A DNA stretch of 64,000 nt, taken from Chloroflexota bacterium. Lineage in GTDB: Bacteria > Chloroflexota > Dehalococcoidia > Lucifugimonadales > Australimonadaceae. Of the stretch, positions 34,412 to 41,999 are shown one piece after another. Numbering within the stretch: position 1 is the stretch's first letter; every line of letters begins with the position of its first letter. The stretch covers positions 1 to 64,000 of the forward strand of contig JAPPHT010000008.1 in assembly GCA_028874795.1 (NCBI GenBank), in the 5' to 3' direction. The translations under genes and the position numbers were made by a program. The notes below the pieces were generated by a model, which did not search any database, was not told the origin of the DNA, and saw nothing but the letters and a program-made list of their open reading frames with translations.

Positions 34412-34558
34412 CTCTTTGCCAAAGCGATGGCTTCGTCCTGCAGAGGGCAGGGGGGCAAAGCGCCTTGTTGTTTCTTGGCTCGGTGAGGCGCTGTCTTCGC
34501 TTCTGTCCTCTTGCCCAATCCTGCCACATCCGGACGGTTCGTGTCCAACCTTCGCGCG

Positions 34559-34578
34559 CTCGCGCGCGTGCGCGCGAG
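34559..34578. repeat. GC-alternating palindrome
   Basis: CTCGCGCGC-GT-GCGCGCGAG is a perfect 9-bp inverted repeat inside a longer alternating CG tract (about 34552-34577). Such tracts can adopt Z-DNA or cruciform shape. It lies 82 bp before the AAA ATPase gene. Confidence 0.6.
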
Positions 34579-34609
34579 AACCTCACATTCTTCTCCATCC
34601 TATCGCCTA

Positions 34610-34654
34610 TGTGACACGCGCCCGTTGCGCCCCCAACGCACCCCTCCCTACCAT
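34610..34654 (+). promoter_or_regulatory. Promoter of the AAA ATPase gene, duplicated at 247-291
   Basis: TTGCGC (34625-34630), an 18-base spacer and TACCAT (34649-34654) are followed after 6 bases by the ATG, without a Shine-Dalgarno, so the message is probably leaderless. The blocks TGTGACAC, CCCGTTGCGC and CACCCCTCCCTACC occur with identical spacing (3 and 8 bases) at 247-289 near the window start. Confidence 0.6.
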
Positions 34655-34660
34655 GGGTGC

Positions 34661-36196
34661 ATGACTACACAACCCGCTCCCGCGCCCTACAACCACATAC
34701 TGCCCGACGTCCTCTCGCCGCAGGATGTCGCCTACCTCAACCGGCTCGACCGCGCCCTTCGCTGCGGCGTCCCCGGCTGCGAATGCGCAACCGGCTCCAC
34801 CCTCCACTGCCCTTCCCACGGCCACGCCGAGGCCCCCACTCTTACCGTCGTCTGGGACGAACGCCGCGAGATCCTGGCGTTCCACTGTCCCTCCTGTCCC
34901 CCGCCCCGCATCTACGACGCCCTTGCGAAGCGCGGCCTCGCCCCCGCATCGGAGATCTACAACGCCTTCGGCGCGCAGGGAGCCGGACTCCAGCCCTTCT
35001 ACTTCTTCATTCAACAGCCGCCCGACTGGCTCTGGCCCAACCGCATCCCTCTCGGCAAACTCACCCTCATCGCCGGATACCCCTCCTCCGGCAAGACCTC
35101 CATCGCCCTCGACATCGCCGCCCGCGTCTCGCGCGGCGCAGCCGCCCCCGACCAGCCGGACGCTCTGTTCCCCTCCGCCCCTGTCGTTCTCGCCCTCCTC
35201 GACGACAACCCCAAGGCCGACGTCCTCCCCACTCTCCGCCTGTTCGGGGCCGATCTGCAACGCGTCTACCTCGCCGACCTCCTCTCCCCCACGCACCCCG
35301 TCGACTACTACCCCGACGACCCACCCAACGACGAGGACGACGGGTACTTCTACCAGGAGGACGACGACGAGGATGAGGATGACGAAGAATACGTCTTCGA
35401 TAACGACGGCAATGAAGTGCGCGTTCCCCGTCGCAAGCCGGTCGGCATACGGGCGCCTGCGCGGGACCCGTTCTGGTCGTCCCCGGCCCCTGGCTCTAGG
35501 CTCGTCGCGCCATGGCCCAGCCTCGACAAGGTCATGGCACGACTCGCCAACTACATCGCCGAGGGGAAGGCTGTCCTCCTGATCGTAGACCAGGTGGAAG
35601 ACCTCGCCTCGATGCACCGTGCCCGCCTCTCCACCATCCTCGGCATGCTCAAGGCCCTCGCGGCGCGTACCGGCGCGGCCGTCGTCGCCCTCACCCACAA
35701 CCCCGCCCTCAACTATCCGCGCGCCGTCACCGCCATGCAGAACCGCCTGGCGCAGGCCTCCGTCGTCTTCACTACCGCCGTCGTCGGGCCCGGTGAGCGC
35801 CGCTTCCTCGTCCCCCTCCGCCCCGCCATGAGCGACGACACCCCCGCCATCCCCTTCGTCCTGCCGCCTTCCGACGCCTTCACCGTTGCCTGGCGCAAGC
35901 CCGTCTTCCCCGCCCACATGAACGCCCTCGCCGGACCCCGCCCCGACGACGGCGCGAGGACCCGTGCGGCGCAAACCTTCCTCACCCGTGCCCTCGCCGA
36001 CGGCCCCCGCCCCGCCTCCGAGATCGAGCGCGAAGCCGCGATGCATGGCATATCTCGCCGTACCCTCTTCCGCGCCCGCGCCCTTGCCGGCATCAGGTCC
36101 ACCCGCATCGGGGCCTCAGAGGGGCCTGGCGCGGGCGCATGGTATTGGTCACTCCCGTCGCGCAGCACTCCGCAACAGGATGAGACACCCCGATGA
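34661..36196 (+). CDS. Zn-finger and RecA-like AAA ATPase of plasmid/phage type
   Basis: A 511-residue protein. The N-terminal 100 residues carry paired cysteines and histidines (RCGVPGCECATG, CPSHGHAE, FHCPSCPPP), like the zinc-binding primase-type heads of replication proteins. A RecA/RepA-like ATPase follows with Walker A GYPSSGKTS (about residue 140) and Walker B-like AVLLIVDQVEDL (about 308). Between them is an acidic low-complexity insert with a run of Asp and Glu (about 224-250). The C-terminus looks like a winged helix (SRRTLFRARALAGIRSTRIG). Such proteins sit on integrated plasmids and prophages and act in replication or as element regulators. No integrase or capsid gene is visible. 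Leaderless start. Confidence 0.72.
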   Translation: MTTQPAPAPYNHILPDVLSPQDVAYLNRLDRALRCGVPGCECATGSTLHCPSHGHAEAPTLTVVWDERREILAFHCPSCPPPRIYDALAKRGLAPASEIYNAFGAQGAGLQPFYFFIQQPPDWLWPNRIPLGKLTLIAGYPSSGKTSIALDIAARVSRGAAAPDQPDALFPSAPVVLALLDDNPKADVLPTLRLFGADLQRVYLADLLSPTHPVDYYPDDPPNDEDDGYFYQEDDDEDEDDEEYVFDNDGNEVRVPRRKPVGIRAPARDPFWSSPAPGSRLVAPWPSLDKVMARLANYIAEGKAVLLIVDQVEDLASMHRARLSTILGMLKALAARTGAAVVALTHNPALNYPRAVTAMQNRLAQASVVFTTAVVGPGERRFLVPLRPAMSDDTPAIPFVLPPSDAFTVAWRKPVFPAHMNALAGPRPDDGARTRAAQTFLTRALADGPRPASEIEREAAMHGISRRTLFRARALAGIRSTRIGASEGPGAGAWYWSLPSRSTPQQDETPR

Positions 36197-37650: not shown

Positions 37651-38757
37651 TCACGAGCACTCCATGGCGGCGCTGAGGCTCTTCAGGTTGTCGCGCATCA
37701 GGCCGAAGTAGTCTCCATGCTCGTCCAGTTCCGCCTGAGTGACGCTCTCTATCGAGTGAATCCTGTAGATGCCGGCCCCTGTCTCGTCGGCGAGCGCCCG
37801 TTCGTTCTCACCGGAGAGCACGGGTTCGAGCAGCACCGCCGTGATGCCGAGCTCCTTGATACGGTCGGCGATGGCGGCGAGGCGCTGCGGCGACGGCTCT
37901 GCTTCCGGGGAGAGGCCGGCGATGCCGACCTGTTCCAGGCTGTACGCCTGCGCGAGGTAGCCGTACGCAGAGTGCGACGTGACGAACTCTTGGTGGACGC
38001 AGGAGCTGAGGCCCGCCTCGAACTCGGCGTGCAGTGCCCCGAGCTCGGAGGAGAGCGTAGCGAGGTTCGCCCGGTAGACGTCAGCGCCCTCGGGGTCCGC
38101 TTCGATCAACGCTCCGGCTATGCGCTCCGCCTGGGTGACGGCGAGCAGCGGGTCGAGCCAGAAGTGGGGGTCGAACTCACCGTGTCCGTGGTCGTCCTCA
38201 CCCTCATGTCCATGATCGTCCCCTTCCATATGGCCGTGCTCGTCCTCGTCTTCGTGCCCATGCTCGTCTTCATCCTCATGGCCGTGTTCGTCCCCTTCCA
38301 TGTGCCCATGCTCATCCTCGTGCCCGTCTTCCACGAACGGCAGTGCCGCCTCGGCGTACGCAGCCTCGACCACGATGCCGGAGACGTCGTTGCCCAGGGA
38401 CTCGAGCGCGCGATGCAGCCAGGGCAACAGGGTGAGGCCATTTATCGCTACGACATCGGCCTCGGCGATCATGAGGAGCTGGCTGGCCGTGAGTTCGAAC
38501 GCGTGGGCCTCGACGCCGGGTGGCACGAGGGTCACGACTTCCACGCGGTCGCCGCCGATACGCTCGGCGAAGTACTGCATCGGGTAGATGCTCGCGACCA
38601 CGCTCAGCGGTTCCGGGGCACTGACCGGCGTGTCTGTGGGCGGAGGGCTGGTTGGCGTGTTCGTGGGCTCGGGGGCCTCCGAGCAGGCCACGATCGCCAT
38701 TGCCAGCACTCCGGCAATGAGCAGCTTGCGCATGTTAGTGAGATGCAGTCTCGTCAT
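37651..38757 (-). CDS. znuA: Zinc ABC transporter substrate-binding lipoprotein ZnuA
   Basis: A 368-residue lipoprotein that captures zinc (or manganese) outside the membrane. The lipobox is AMAIVAC (Cys25), then a Pro/Thr linker, VVASIYPMQYFAERIGGDR, the metal ligand His in PPGVEAHAFELT, a His/Asp/Glu-rich loop of about 55 residues with repeated DEHGH units, then DPHFWLDPL, TSHSAYGYLA and LLEPVLSGE, the remaining cluster A-I ligand sites. GGAGGG lies 5 bases before ATG 38757. The ATPase and permease partners are not in this window. Upstream is a palindromic operator shared with zur and a structured leader. Confidence 0.93.
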   Translation of the reverse strand: MTRLHLTNMRKLLIAGVLAMAIVACSEAPEPTNTPTSPPPTDTPVSAPEPLSVVASIYPMQYFAERIGGDRVEVVTLVPPGVEAHAFELTASQLLMIAEADVVAINGLTLLPWLHRALESLGNDVSGIVVEAAYAEAALPFVEDGHEDEHGHMEGDEHGHEDEDEHGHEDEDEHGHMEGDDHGHEGEDDHGHGEFDPHFWLDPLLAVTQAERIAGALIEADPEGADVYRANLATLSSELGALHAEFEAGLSSCVHQEFVTSHSAYGYLAQAYSLEQVGIAGLSPEAEPSPQRLAAIADRIKELGITAVLLEPVLSGENERALADETGAGIYRIHSIESVTQAELDEHGDYFGLMRDNLKSLSAAMECS

Positions 38758-38914: not shown

Positions 38915-38939
38915 GTATCAATAATATCCAAGATGATAC
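38915..38939. promoter_or_regulatory. Zur-type operator and promoter of znuA1
   Basis: GTATCA-(13 bases)-TGATAC is an inverted repeat whose arms are identical to those in front of zur (41974-41999). On the minus strand the same bases include TTGATA, a likely -35 hexamer, so bound repressor would block transcription. The spacer 38758-39062 otherwise holds the leader of znuA1 and the hairpin of znuA2. Confidence 0.65.
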
Positions 38940-39062: not shown

Positions 39063-41399
39063 CTACGAGCACTCCATCGCGGTGCGGAGGCTGCTCAGGT
39101 TGTCGCGCATCAGACCGAAGTAATCTCCGTGTTCGTCCAACTCGGCCTGGGTTATGCCGTCCATGGGGTGGATCGTGTGTATGTTTGCGCCGGTCTCGGC
39201 GGCGAGCACCTGCTCGTGCGAACCGGCAAGCACAGGCTCCACGAGTATGGCCCCCAGGCCGAGGTCGTTGATGCGGTCGGCGATGGCGGCAAGGCGCTGC
39301 GGTGACGGCTCCGCGTCAGGAGAGAGCCCAGCCACGGACACCTGCTCCAGGTCGTAGGCGAGGGCGAGATAGCCGTATGCGGCGTGCGACGTGACGAACT
39401 CGCGGTGTGCGCACGAGCTGAGGCCCGCCTCGAACTCGGCGTGCAGCGCCCGGAGCTCGGAGGAGAGCGCGGCGAGGTTCGCCCGGTAGACGTCGGCGCC
39501 CTCGGGGTCCGCCTCGATCAAGGCCCCGGCGATGCGCTCCGCCTGGGTGATGGCGCGCAGCGGGTCGAGCCAGAAGTGGGGGTCGAACTCGCCGTGGGCG
39601 TGCGCATGCTCGTCCTCATCCTCGTGTCCATGCTCGTCCTCATCCTCGTGTCCATGCTCGTCCTCATCCTCGTGTCCGTGGTCGTCCTCTTCGCCGAGGA
39701 CGCCAACGAAGGCGATGCCGGTGGGCGAACCACCAACGTCCCAGACCTCTTCGACCTCGAGGTGTTCGAGATCGACCGAGATGACCTCACCGTGGGCCGG
39801 GTCCGTGAGGAACATCGTCTCCCCGACGATGATCAAGCGGGGCCGCGCGTCCTCACCCGGCTCCATGACGTGGAGGTGCGCGATCTCATCGCCGTCGTGG
39901 GCATCGAGCACGTGAAGCTCGCCTTCGGCGGTGAGCAGGTAGAGGCGCTCGGCGTGCGCGCCGACGGCGCCGGCCGCGACCGGTTCGCTGAAGACCTGCC
40001 GGAACTCGCCTCCCTCGGGGTCGATCAGCCAGATGCCGTCGTCGGCGAATCCCTGGCCGTCGAAGTAGGAGGCGCGGCCGAAGAAGTGGTGCAGGTCGTG
40101 GTGCGAGAAGAAGGAGCCGATGCGCGACTCTTCCCGCATCTCCGGCGGGTTCTCGATGAAGTCGTGCTCGTACCCCCCGTCGTGCGGGTGCAGGAAGAGC
40201 ACGCCGCCAACGCACCCGAGGATCACGCCTTCCTCGTTGTGCGTCTCGCCGTGCATGCCCGGGCAGGAGCGGTTGCTCGCATCGTAGACAACTTCCCCGT
40301 CCAGGTCCCAGACCTCGATCCCGACGGGCAGGCTGCTGTCGGTGTTCTCGGGATAGTCGGGGTTCCTGGTCGTCACCGCGATGTGGTCCGGTGTGATCGC
40401 AACAGCGGCGCCGTGCTGGGGGCCGGCCTCGAAAGCGATCGGCTGGTAGTCGCCCTGCGTGTTGGTTATCTCTTCCTCGTTGTAGAGGTAGACGTGGCCC
40501 TCAGCGTCGGCGAAGACCGCCGTCCAGCCGTAGCTGTTGACGAAGTGGACCGGCCGTTCATCCGTCACCACGGTGGGGTGACGCGAGACAGGCTCACGCA
40601 CGAGGTCGAAGTGGTCGCCGTGCTCGACGAGGAAGACGCCGCCGTCGAAGAGGTGGATGCCGTCGTCGTCGTCTCCGGGTCCACGTGCGAGTACGAAGGC
40701 GTAGCGGTGGGTGGGGCTGGGGTAGATGGCGGCCGGCGGCGCGCTGATCTGGAATGCGCCGGAGTCGAGCTCCTCTGTGGAGAGGTCGAGGACCGAGAGG
40801 TGTTGCGCCTCGAGGTCCGCGATCAGCAGGCGTCCGTCGAAGGCCGACTCTTCTTCATGGCCGTGCTCATCCTCTTCCATGTGCCCATGCTCGTCCTCGT
40901 CCTCGTGGCCGTGTTCGTCCTCTTCCATGTGCCCATGCTCATCCTCTTCTTCATGGCCGTGTTCGTCCCCGCCTTCTTTGAAGGGCAGCGCGGTCTCCGC
41001 GTCGGCAGCCTCGACGACGATCGCGGTGACGTCGCTGCCGAGGGACGCGAGCGCGCGCTCCAGCCAGGGCTCCAGCTCGAGGCCGTTCATCGCTATGACG
41101 TCGGCGTCGCCGATCGTGATCAGGTCACGCGCCGTGAGCTCGAACGTATGGCCCTCGGCGCCGGGGGGCACAAGGCTGACGACTTCCACGCGGTCGCCGC
41201 CGATGCGCTCGGCGAAGTATTGCATCGGGTAGATGCTCGCGACCACGCTGAGCGGCTCGTGGGTAGTAACCGGTGTATCCGCAGGCGGAGGGTTCGGGGG
41301 CGTGTCCGTGGGCGCGGTATCCCCTGCGCAGGCGACGACCGCCAGGGTCAGCGCCCCGACGACTAACAACTTGTACCAACTAATGAGAGCGTATCTCAT
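39063..41399 (-). CDS. ZnuA-type binding protein with inserted AztD-like beta-propeller
   Basis: A 778-residue lipoprotein (lipobox ALTLAVVAC). Residues 1-144 are the ZnuA N-lobe, 145-183 a His-rich loop, about 186-570 a beta-propeller, 573-602 a second His-rich run and 604-778 the ZnuA C-lobe (DPHFWLDPL, TSHAAYGYLA, LVEPVLAGS). The propeller resembles AztD, the periplasmic zinc chaperone that loads the ZnuA-like AztC: GIHLFDGGVFLVEHGDHFD, ERPVHFVNSYG, PQHGAAVAI, LPVGIEVWDLDG, GMHGETHNEEGVILGCVGGVL, and a histidine patch SHHDLHHFFG. Chaperone and acceptor are thus one chain. The outer halves are close to znuA1, so the insertion followed a duplication. The ATG at 41399 has GGAGGT 6 bases upstream, 31 bases after zur; an upstream in-frame TTG is less likely. 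Confidence 0.88.
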   Translation of the reverse strand: MRYALISWYKLLVVGALTLAVVACAGDTAPTDTPPNPPPADTPVTTHEPLSVVASIYPMQYFAERIGGDRVEVVSLVPPGAEGHTFELTARDLITIGDADVIAMNGLELEPWLERALASLGSDVTAIVVEAADAETALPFKEGGDEHGHEEEDEHGHMEEDEHGHEDEDEHGHMEEDEHGHEEESAFDGRLLIADLEAQHLSVLDLSTEELDSGAFQISAPPAAIYPSPTHRYAFVLARGPGDDDDGIHLFDGGVFLVEHGDHFDLVREPVSRHPTVVTDERPVHFVNSYGWTAVFADAEGHVYLYNEEEITNTQGDYQPIAFEAGPQHGAAVAITPDHIAVTTRNPDYPENTDSSLPVGIEVWDLDGEVVYDASNRSCPGMHGETHNEEGVILGCVGGVLFLHPHDGGYEHDFIENPPEMREESRIGSFFSHHDLHHFFGRASYFDGQGFADDGIWLIDPEGGEFRQVFSEPVAAGAVGAHAERLYLLTAEGELHVLDAHDGDEIAHLHVMEPGEDARPRLIIVGETMFLTDPAHGEVISVDLEHLEVEEVWDVGGSPTGIAFVGVLGEEDDHGHEDEDEHGHEDEDEHGHEDEDEHAHAHGEFDPHFWLDPLRAITQAERIAGALIEADPEGADVYRANLAALSSELRALHAEFEAGLSSCAHREFVTSHAAYGYLALAYDLEQVSVAGLSPDAEPSPQRLAAIADRINDLGLGAILVEPVLAGSHEQVLAAETGANIHTIHPMDGITQAELDEHGDYFGLMRDNLSSLRTAMECS

Positions 41400-41430: not shown

Positions 41431-41931
41431 TCAGTCTGTATGCACGTGAGCCCCGTGCACGTGGATGTCTTCACCGCCCTGACCGCTCTCTCGACAGCCG
41501 GCGCAGCGGTGATACAGCTCCAGGCGGTGCCCGATGAGTTCGCTCCCGACGGGGGCCTTCATGGCGCGGAGCATCCGTTCGATAGAAGGATGGCGAAACT
41601 CCTCGATGCGTTCGCAGCCGACACAGACGAGGTGATGGTGATGGTGTGCGTCGTCCAGCGAGTAGCGGGGCGAGCCGTCCGGCAGGTTGGTCTTGCAGAG
41701 GACACCGGCGTTCCCGAGCAGGCGCAGCGTGCGATAGACGGTCGCCCGGCCCAGAGTCGGCAACTCGGCTACGATCTCCTCAGCGCTGAACGAGTCGGTC
41801 CGTCGAGCGAGCATCCTCGCCATCTGACGACGTGGCCAGGTCATGCGGCTGCCGTGCTCCTCCAACGCCGCAAGGATGTTGGACTCGGCCTGCATGACCG
41901 CGCTGGCCGATTTCGTGGGGCCCTTCACCAT
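41431..41931 (-). CDS. zur: Fur-family zinc uptake regulator Zur
   Basis: A 166-residue Fur-family repressor. The winged helix (MTWPRRQMARMLARRTDSFSAEEIVAELPTLGRATVYRTLRLL) is followed by the metal sites HHHHHLVCVGCERIEEF and CAGCRESG, which hold the structural zinc, and a His-rich C-terminal tail (HVHGAHVH). Linkage to two ZnuA genes identifies zinc as the likely signal. The start is ATG 41931, because a full promoter ends 7 bases before it; the frame continues 12 codons upstream across that promoter. It probably represses itself and the znuA2 gene behind it. Confidence 0.9.
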   Translation of the reverse strand: MVKGPTKSASAVMQAESNILAALEEHGSRMTWPRRQMARMLARRTDSFSAEEIVAELPTLGRATVYRTLRLLGNAGVLCKTNLPDGSPRYSLDDAHHHHHLVCVGCERIEEFRHPSIERMLRAMKAPVGSELIGHRLELYHRCAGCRESGQGGEDIHVHGAHVHTD

Positions 41932-41938
41932 GGTCTGA

Positions 41939-41999
41939 ACGGTATTGCCGCACTGGCATACTGTCAATACGGAGTATCAATAAGATACAAGAGTGATAC
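41939..41999 (-). promoter_or_regulatory. zur promoter with overlapping operator
   Basis: On the minus strand TTGACA (41967-41962), a 17-base spacer and TACCGT (41944-41939) make a good promoter, 7 bases before the ATG, implying a leaderless message. Just upstream lies GTATCA-(14 bases)-TGATAC (41974-41999), the palindrome shared with znuA1. Confidence 0.7.

Follow-up and report, generated by a model that had tools for sequence, protein, structure and literature searches.

A gene in a Chloroflexota genome encodes what, by its sequence, is a zinc-binding protein of the ZnuA/AztC type with the chaperone AztD inserted in its His-rich loop. The gene (39063-41399, minus strand, 778 aa) was found in a stretch of 64,000 nucleotides, which we refer to as the window. 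The order of N-lobe, AztD and C-lobe was read in 29 chains from 28 Chloroflexota genomes, the window's included, and the metal ligands of both partners are retained in nearly all of them. The original prediction had known of no description of this architecture, and we likewise found no account of ZnuA-AztD-ZnuA in the open-access literature searched.

Domain architecture of the fused chain

The reading frame of the fusion runs uninterrupted on the minus strand from the ATG at 41399 to the stop at 39063, and a TTG one codon 5' of this ATG offers an alternative start. All features in this section lie on the same strand. A signal peptide was read from the sequence at residues 1-24 (41328-41399). 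It contains VVAC, which under the general lipobox rule we take to be a lipobox, and the protein would then be a lipoprotein. Pfam ZnuA (PF01297) matched the chain with an overall E-value of 2.6e-79 in two stretches with the insert between them, and NCBIfam AztC matched it with 2.8e-50. The N-lobe covers residues 48-138 (40986-41258; Pfam and phmmer) and includes the zinc ligand H84. The C-lobe covers residues 605-778 (39066-39587; Pfam, phmmer and alignment) and includes the ligands H608 in DPHFW and H672 in TSH. The His-rich flexible loop between the ZnuA lobes is present and is interrupted by the propeller, leaving an N-side linker at residues 139-186 (40842-40985; 48 aa with 10 His and 24 Asp/Glu) and a C-side linker at residues 569-604 (39588-39695; 36 aa with 9 His and 20 Asp/Glu).

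The predicted beta-propeller itself occupies residues 187-568 (39696-40841). NCBIfam AztD matched residues 194-565 with an E-value of 2.1e-40 across model positions 2-354 of 356, at a score of 138 bits that is under the 400-bit cut-off applied by NCBI for naming stand-alone AztD. When the propeller was compared with solved structures using phmmer, AztD alone rose above the noise (6cmk with 3.6e-23, 6ck1 with 3.8e-18). We also considered an unrelated propeller family and rejected it, as the matches to YncE and PQQ were at or near noise level. The reading of one chain as ZnuA N-lobe, His-rich loop, AztD-like propeller, second His-rich run and ZnuA C-lobe, made originally from the letters alone, is thus upheld by the profile searches, and the relationship of the propeller to AztD is further supported by its ligands and Cys pair (see below).

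Structure prediction of the 778-residue chain, which had been proposed as a check, was too poor in the propeller for any statement on geometry. The AlphaFold model had a mean pLDDT of 57, computed from an alignment limited to the window and related-locus sequences with two propeller rows. The lobes were mostly good, with much of the C-lobe modelled at high confidence, and the propeller and the linkers were poor. Foldseek listed both ZnuA and AztD structures for this model. Among solved relatives of the lobes, 7jj8, the ZnuA domain of AdcA, ranked first. The propeller region contained predicted strands and matched AztD by a sequence-aided score, with an rmsd of about 20 Å in a low-confidence part of the model. 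This superposition is meaningless and the fold is therefore argued from sequence.

Occurrence in other Chloroflexota

The search for further fusions covered the genomes of the genus, a sample of the phylum and a sample of the class, all within Chloroflexota. The genomes that carry the fusion belong to several families and to at least two classes. The count of 29 chains leaves out frames of about 800 aa in G448 and G699 and a second copy in G583. Two other genomes of the window's genus have the fusion (827 and 765 aa), and the named relatives are metagenome bins of Chloroflexota/SAR202. In every one of the 29 chains the propeller was inserted within the His-rich loop and never at the end of the chain.

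As at least 27 further Chloroflexota genomes have the fusion, the arrangement is real. The repetitive His-rich DNA at both joins could suggest an artefact, in which misassembly or a frameshift joined a znuA to an aztD gene, but the identical domain order in 27 other, diverged genomes, among them G675 with a single contig of 2.6 Mb, refutes this explanation. The original prediction had named such an artefact at the His-rich repeats, and a propeller unrelated to AztD, as grounds for dropping its reading, and neither applies. It had also proposed looking for the architecture in other Chloroflexota, where it was indeed present. When genome contigs were scanned with six short peptides as leads, the hits were a single Chloroflexota fusion plus ZnuAs that were plain or partial, and the four plasmid AztDs that we inspected were all separate genes. 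Apart from the fused one the window's genome has no AztD. In G551 and G584 the fusion is accompanied by an additional AztD frame that is shorter, at 466-475 aa.

Conservation of the metal ligands

In the AztD of Paracoccus denitrificans (PdAztD) the ligands are His124, His167 and His218 at site 1 and His99, His102 and Asp104 at site 2, and Cys214 and Cys231 form a disulfide (PMC6689063). Alignment to 6ck1 placed the site 1 ligands at H285, H329 and H383 of the fusion and the site 2 ligands at H260, H263 and D265 inside the motif HGDHFD (40605-40622, minus strand), with the disulfide corresponding to C379 and C396. The region of PdAztD His408, the fourth ligand of site 2, runs into the His-rich linker, where there are many candidate His residues.

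We checked 11 residues across the aligned chains: the three ZnuA His, the three site 1 His, three site 2 ligands and the Cys pair. The window protein has all 11, and each one is shared by at least 27 of the 29 fused chains. The three ZnuA His (H84, H608 and H672), His99, Asp104 and both Cys occur in 29 of 29; the remaining AztD ligands are absent only in G226, plus His218 in G162. Apart from these two fusions the ligands are still complete in propellers with identities to the window's down to 27%. The G226 fusion (L012, 871-3144, minus strand) lost all three site 1 His as well as His102 of site 2 and its ZnuA ligands stay, so it provides a natural loss-of-function contrast. As a candidate for the fourth ZnuA ligand, an Asp or Glu, the window protein has D747, in a column that is gapped in the wider alignment.

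Gene neighbourhood and candidate operator

The window cluster consists of fur, the fusion and znuA1, in this order and all on the minus strand. Its first gene (41431-41967) encodes a Fur-family regulator and candidate Zur (Pfam FUR with 3.2e-26), and znuA1 (37651-38757) encodes a plain ZnuA paralogue of 368 aa without a propeller (Pfam with 1.4e-77). The Fur encoded ahead of znuA-znuC-znuB on contig C31 of the same genome shares 73% identity with the window Fur. Because C31 has the order fur-znuA-znuC-znuB with the only ABC-3 permease found in this genome, which is not beside the fusion, the window cluster has the appearance of a duplicated fur-znuA portion of the C31 set. In six other genomes (G675, G501, G162, G661, G630 and G516) the fusion is directly 5' of znuC and then znuB, and its position there marks it as the importer's binding protein. 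The lobes of several of these znuCB-linked fusions match AztC with E-values of 1e-74 to 1e-80. Both Fur paralogues (41431-41967 in the window; L101, 10475-11008) have a short His-rich C-terminus, HVHGAHVHTD and HMHGTHMHVH, respectively.

Upstream of fur and the fusion we observed an operator-like palindrome, GTATCA-N14-TGATAC (41974-41999). A second copy is located upstream of znuA1 (38915-38939) and another upstream of the zinc operon on C31 (29011-29036). The pattern GTATCR-N13/14-TGATAC has five sites in the 3.33 Mb genome, three of them at zinc genes, and the reversed control pattern has zero sites in the same 3.33 Mb. In the sister genomes the palindrome was also found upstream of the fusion and of the plain ZnuA genes. 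Judging by its positions we consider it a candidate Zur operator. The other two matches are at C68:20396 and C74:15599. A further large ORF of the window (34511-36196, plus strand) contains the P-loop-like stretch GYPSSGKTS and a long acidic insert; it resembles an ATPase and may belong to a mobile element.

Proposed zinc transfer within the chain

On balance we think it likely that zinc goes from site 2 of AztD to the ZnuA cleft inside a single chain, AztD being built into the loop, and is passed on to a ZnuBC-type importer. For the two-protein system it was reported that AztC receives zinc from site 2 of AztD only, that site 2 consists of terminal strands, and that the rate is limited by association of the two proteins, at 575-1330 per M per s; docking placed the loop of AztC inside the channel of AztD, with site 2 in the AztC cleft (PMC6689063). 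In the docked pair the N-terminus of AztD is part of the interface, and transfer requires the AztC loop (PMC7463823). The published docking model makes single-chain transfer plausible.

In the proposed sequence of events the surface lipoprotein would be the zinc-binding component, of ZnuA/AztC type, of a ZnuBC-type importer. The propeller would load zinc at its two sites and site 2 would then pass it to the chain's own ZnuA cleft. As site 2 is made from the N- and C-terminal strands of the propeller and a hairpin, it should lie at the junctions between insert and loop, and as AztD is joined into the loop by its termini, site 2 should be near the cleft. The His-rich linkers, with 10 and 9 His, may act both as a tether and as low-affinity zinc collectors. 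Tethering would provide a high local concentration in place of the slow association of the two-protein system: if we assume ∼1 mM, as for such flexible linkers, the published rates would give roughly one transfer per second with no encounter step. The Fur/Zur-type repressor whose gene opens the cluster probably controls expression, and in the window's genome the fusion would serve the permease on C31. The analysis shows the architecture and its recurrence, the retained ligands, the linkage to znuCB in relatives and the discordant histories of propeller and lobes; zinc binding, intramolecular transfer, zinc regulation and the service to the C31 permease are all steps that we infer.

Several observations count against this model. 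The docking model has the free loop threading the propeller channel, and with the propeller inside the loop only the linkers could do so, if at all. Furthermore, znuBC is not adjacent to the fusion in the window's genome, and G226 keeps its insert despite the loss of the three site 1 His and one site 2 His.

We also weighed other roles for the propeller. It could be a zinc reservoir or scavenger, with the ZnuA site being filled by dissociation and rebinding via the His-rich linkers and no specific handover from site 2 to the cleft. Retention of both AztD sites and of the 19 linker His would suit such a role, and storage has been suggested for site 1 (PMC6689063). However, in 29 of 29 chains the insert is found not at a chain end but in the very loop that is essential for transfer from AztD to AztC, and the site 2 ligands are conserved to the same degree as those of site 1, which makes the reservoir unlikely. 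A smaller chance still is left for a propeller that serves other ZnuAs in trans, namely znuA1 or the ZnuA of C31, with its own lobes being secondary. The fusion does adjoin a plain znuA, away from znuCB, in the window's genome; on the other hand its own ZnuA ligands are intact and in the six genomes named above it is the binding protein encoded beside znuCB. Lastly, the propeller could be mainly structural or bind another surface partner, its metal sites being relics. The fusion of G226, which retains the insert without four metal ligands, would fit this, but elsewhere every checked AztD ligand is kept, bar one in G162, even where propeller identity is as low as 27%, and we consider relic sites very improbable.

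Relation to known zinc systems

Among the closest known systems is the AztC-AztD pair of the Paracoccus denitrificans AztABCD system, whose proteins are of the same two families and have in common with the fusion the two AztD zinc sites, the disulfide and, in the binding protein, the His-rich loop. In Paracoccus AztC and AztD are two proteins that associate slowly, whereas here AztD lies inside the loop of the binding protein in one chain. We propose the fusion as a new variant of AztCD. The AdcA of streptococci is likewise a zinc-binding lipoprotein whose single chain includes another zinc-recruiting domain. This extra domain is ZinT and follows the ZnuA domain, in contrast to a beta-propeller inside the ZnuA domain. 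Pfam gave no ZinT match in the fusion, and the chain ends with the ZnuA lobe. The ZnuA of ZnuABC has the lobes, the three-His site, the His-rich loop and an adjoining Fur-type regulator in common with the fusion but carries no inserted domain.

The complex in which AztC and AztD transfer zinc is transient, and in PMC6689063 and PMC7463823 it is known from docking only. In the fused chain the donor is tethered to its acceptor through the very loop that is thought to enter the donor channel, which would make the chain a naturally tethered complex. Solving its structure and following transfer kinetics in the single chain would put the docking model to a direct test, and the fusion would offer a natural means to study the handover of zinc from protein to protein.

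Separate histories of the lobes and the propeller

The original prediction had explained the fusion by one insertion, made locally in a duplicated ZnuA close to znuA1. This part did not stand: an origin in one event with this znuA duplicate is contradicted by the wide distribution of the architecture and by the conflict between the propeller and lobe trees. The outer lobes are indeed near znuA1, as had been noted, with 80% identity in the C-lobe, although the ZnuA of C31 is closer with 87%.

Across 406 pairs of fused chains the identities of the N- and C-lobes correlated at 0.78, compared to only 0.54 and 0.48 for the propeller and the lobes. The two lobes have a common history, from which that of the propeller often departs, and individual pairs diverge in both directions. 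For G501 and G162 we observed identities of 74%, 37% and 77% in N-lobe, propeller and C-lobe, respectively, whereas the values were 37%, 80% and 36% for G559 and G501, 34%, 64% and 29% for the window's genome (G000) and G559, and 40%, 79% and 46% for G460b and G551. The lobe data rejected a single clade of all fusions (AU p 1.7e-56) and the grouping of the propeller tree (AU p 2.2e-44); the propeller data rejected the lobe clade G162+G226+G501+G675 (p 0.00017) and the f19 lobe clade (p 1.5e-54). The tested clades were chosen after seeing the trees and these p-values are thus optimistic; the raw contrast in identities is independent of them. A single insertion would have given propeller and lobes one tree. 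As the trees conflict, the propeller was repeatedly inserted or exchanged, and both lobes stayed in place.

Within the window's genus the lobes fall among the plain ZnuAs of that genus and the propeller is 60-64% identical to propellers of several other families. The three fusions of this genus as one C-lobe clade gave a borderline result (AU p 0.059), and gene conversion or independent insertion may have occurred inside the genus. The G516 fusion (L117, 6972-9260, minus strand), set in the order fur ... fusion-znuC-znuB, has a propeller with only 24-29% identity to the other tabulated fusions and is probably an independent insertion.

The His-rich DNA at both borders of the insert belongs to one 24-nt repeat family, which is common to znuA1. 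These flanking repeats are an obvious place for recombination, a step that we infer. It is possible, at slightly worse than even chances, that the AztD propeller is an exchangeable module which was inserted or swapped among several ZnuA lineages by recombination at the His-rich repeats, giving self-loading proteins in which each chaperone supplies no chain but its own. With an entire domain exchanged repeatedly within a loop, flanking lobes that kept a history of their own and repeat DNA at either border, these proteins clearly exemplify the insertion and swapping of internal domains.

Unlike the fused propeller, the stand-alone AztDs of Chloroflexota are free proteins of about 370-530 aa; in the class we found them in G446, G488, G610, G714, G576, G521 and G677. 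Their propellers are 44-53% identical to the window's and some are nested among the fused ones in the tree. In G714 two stand-alone AztD genes form a tandem pair (L060, 1489-4169, minus strand).
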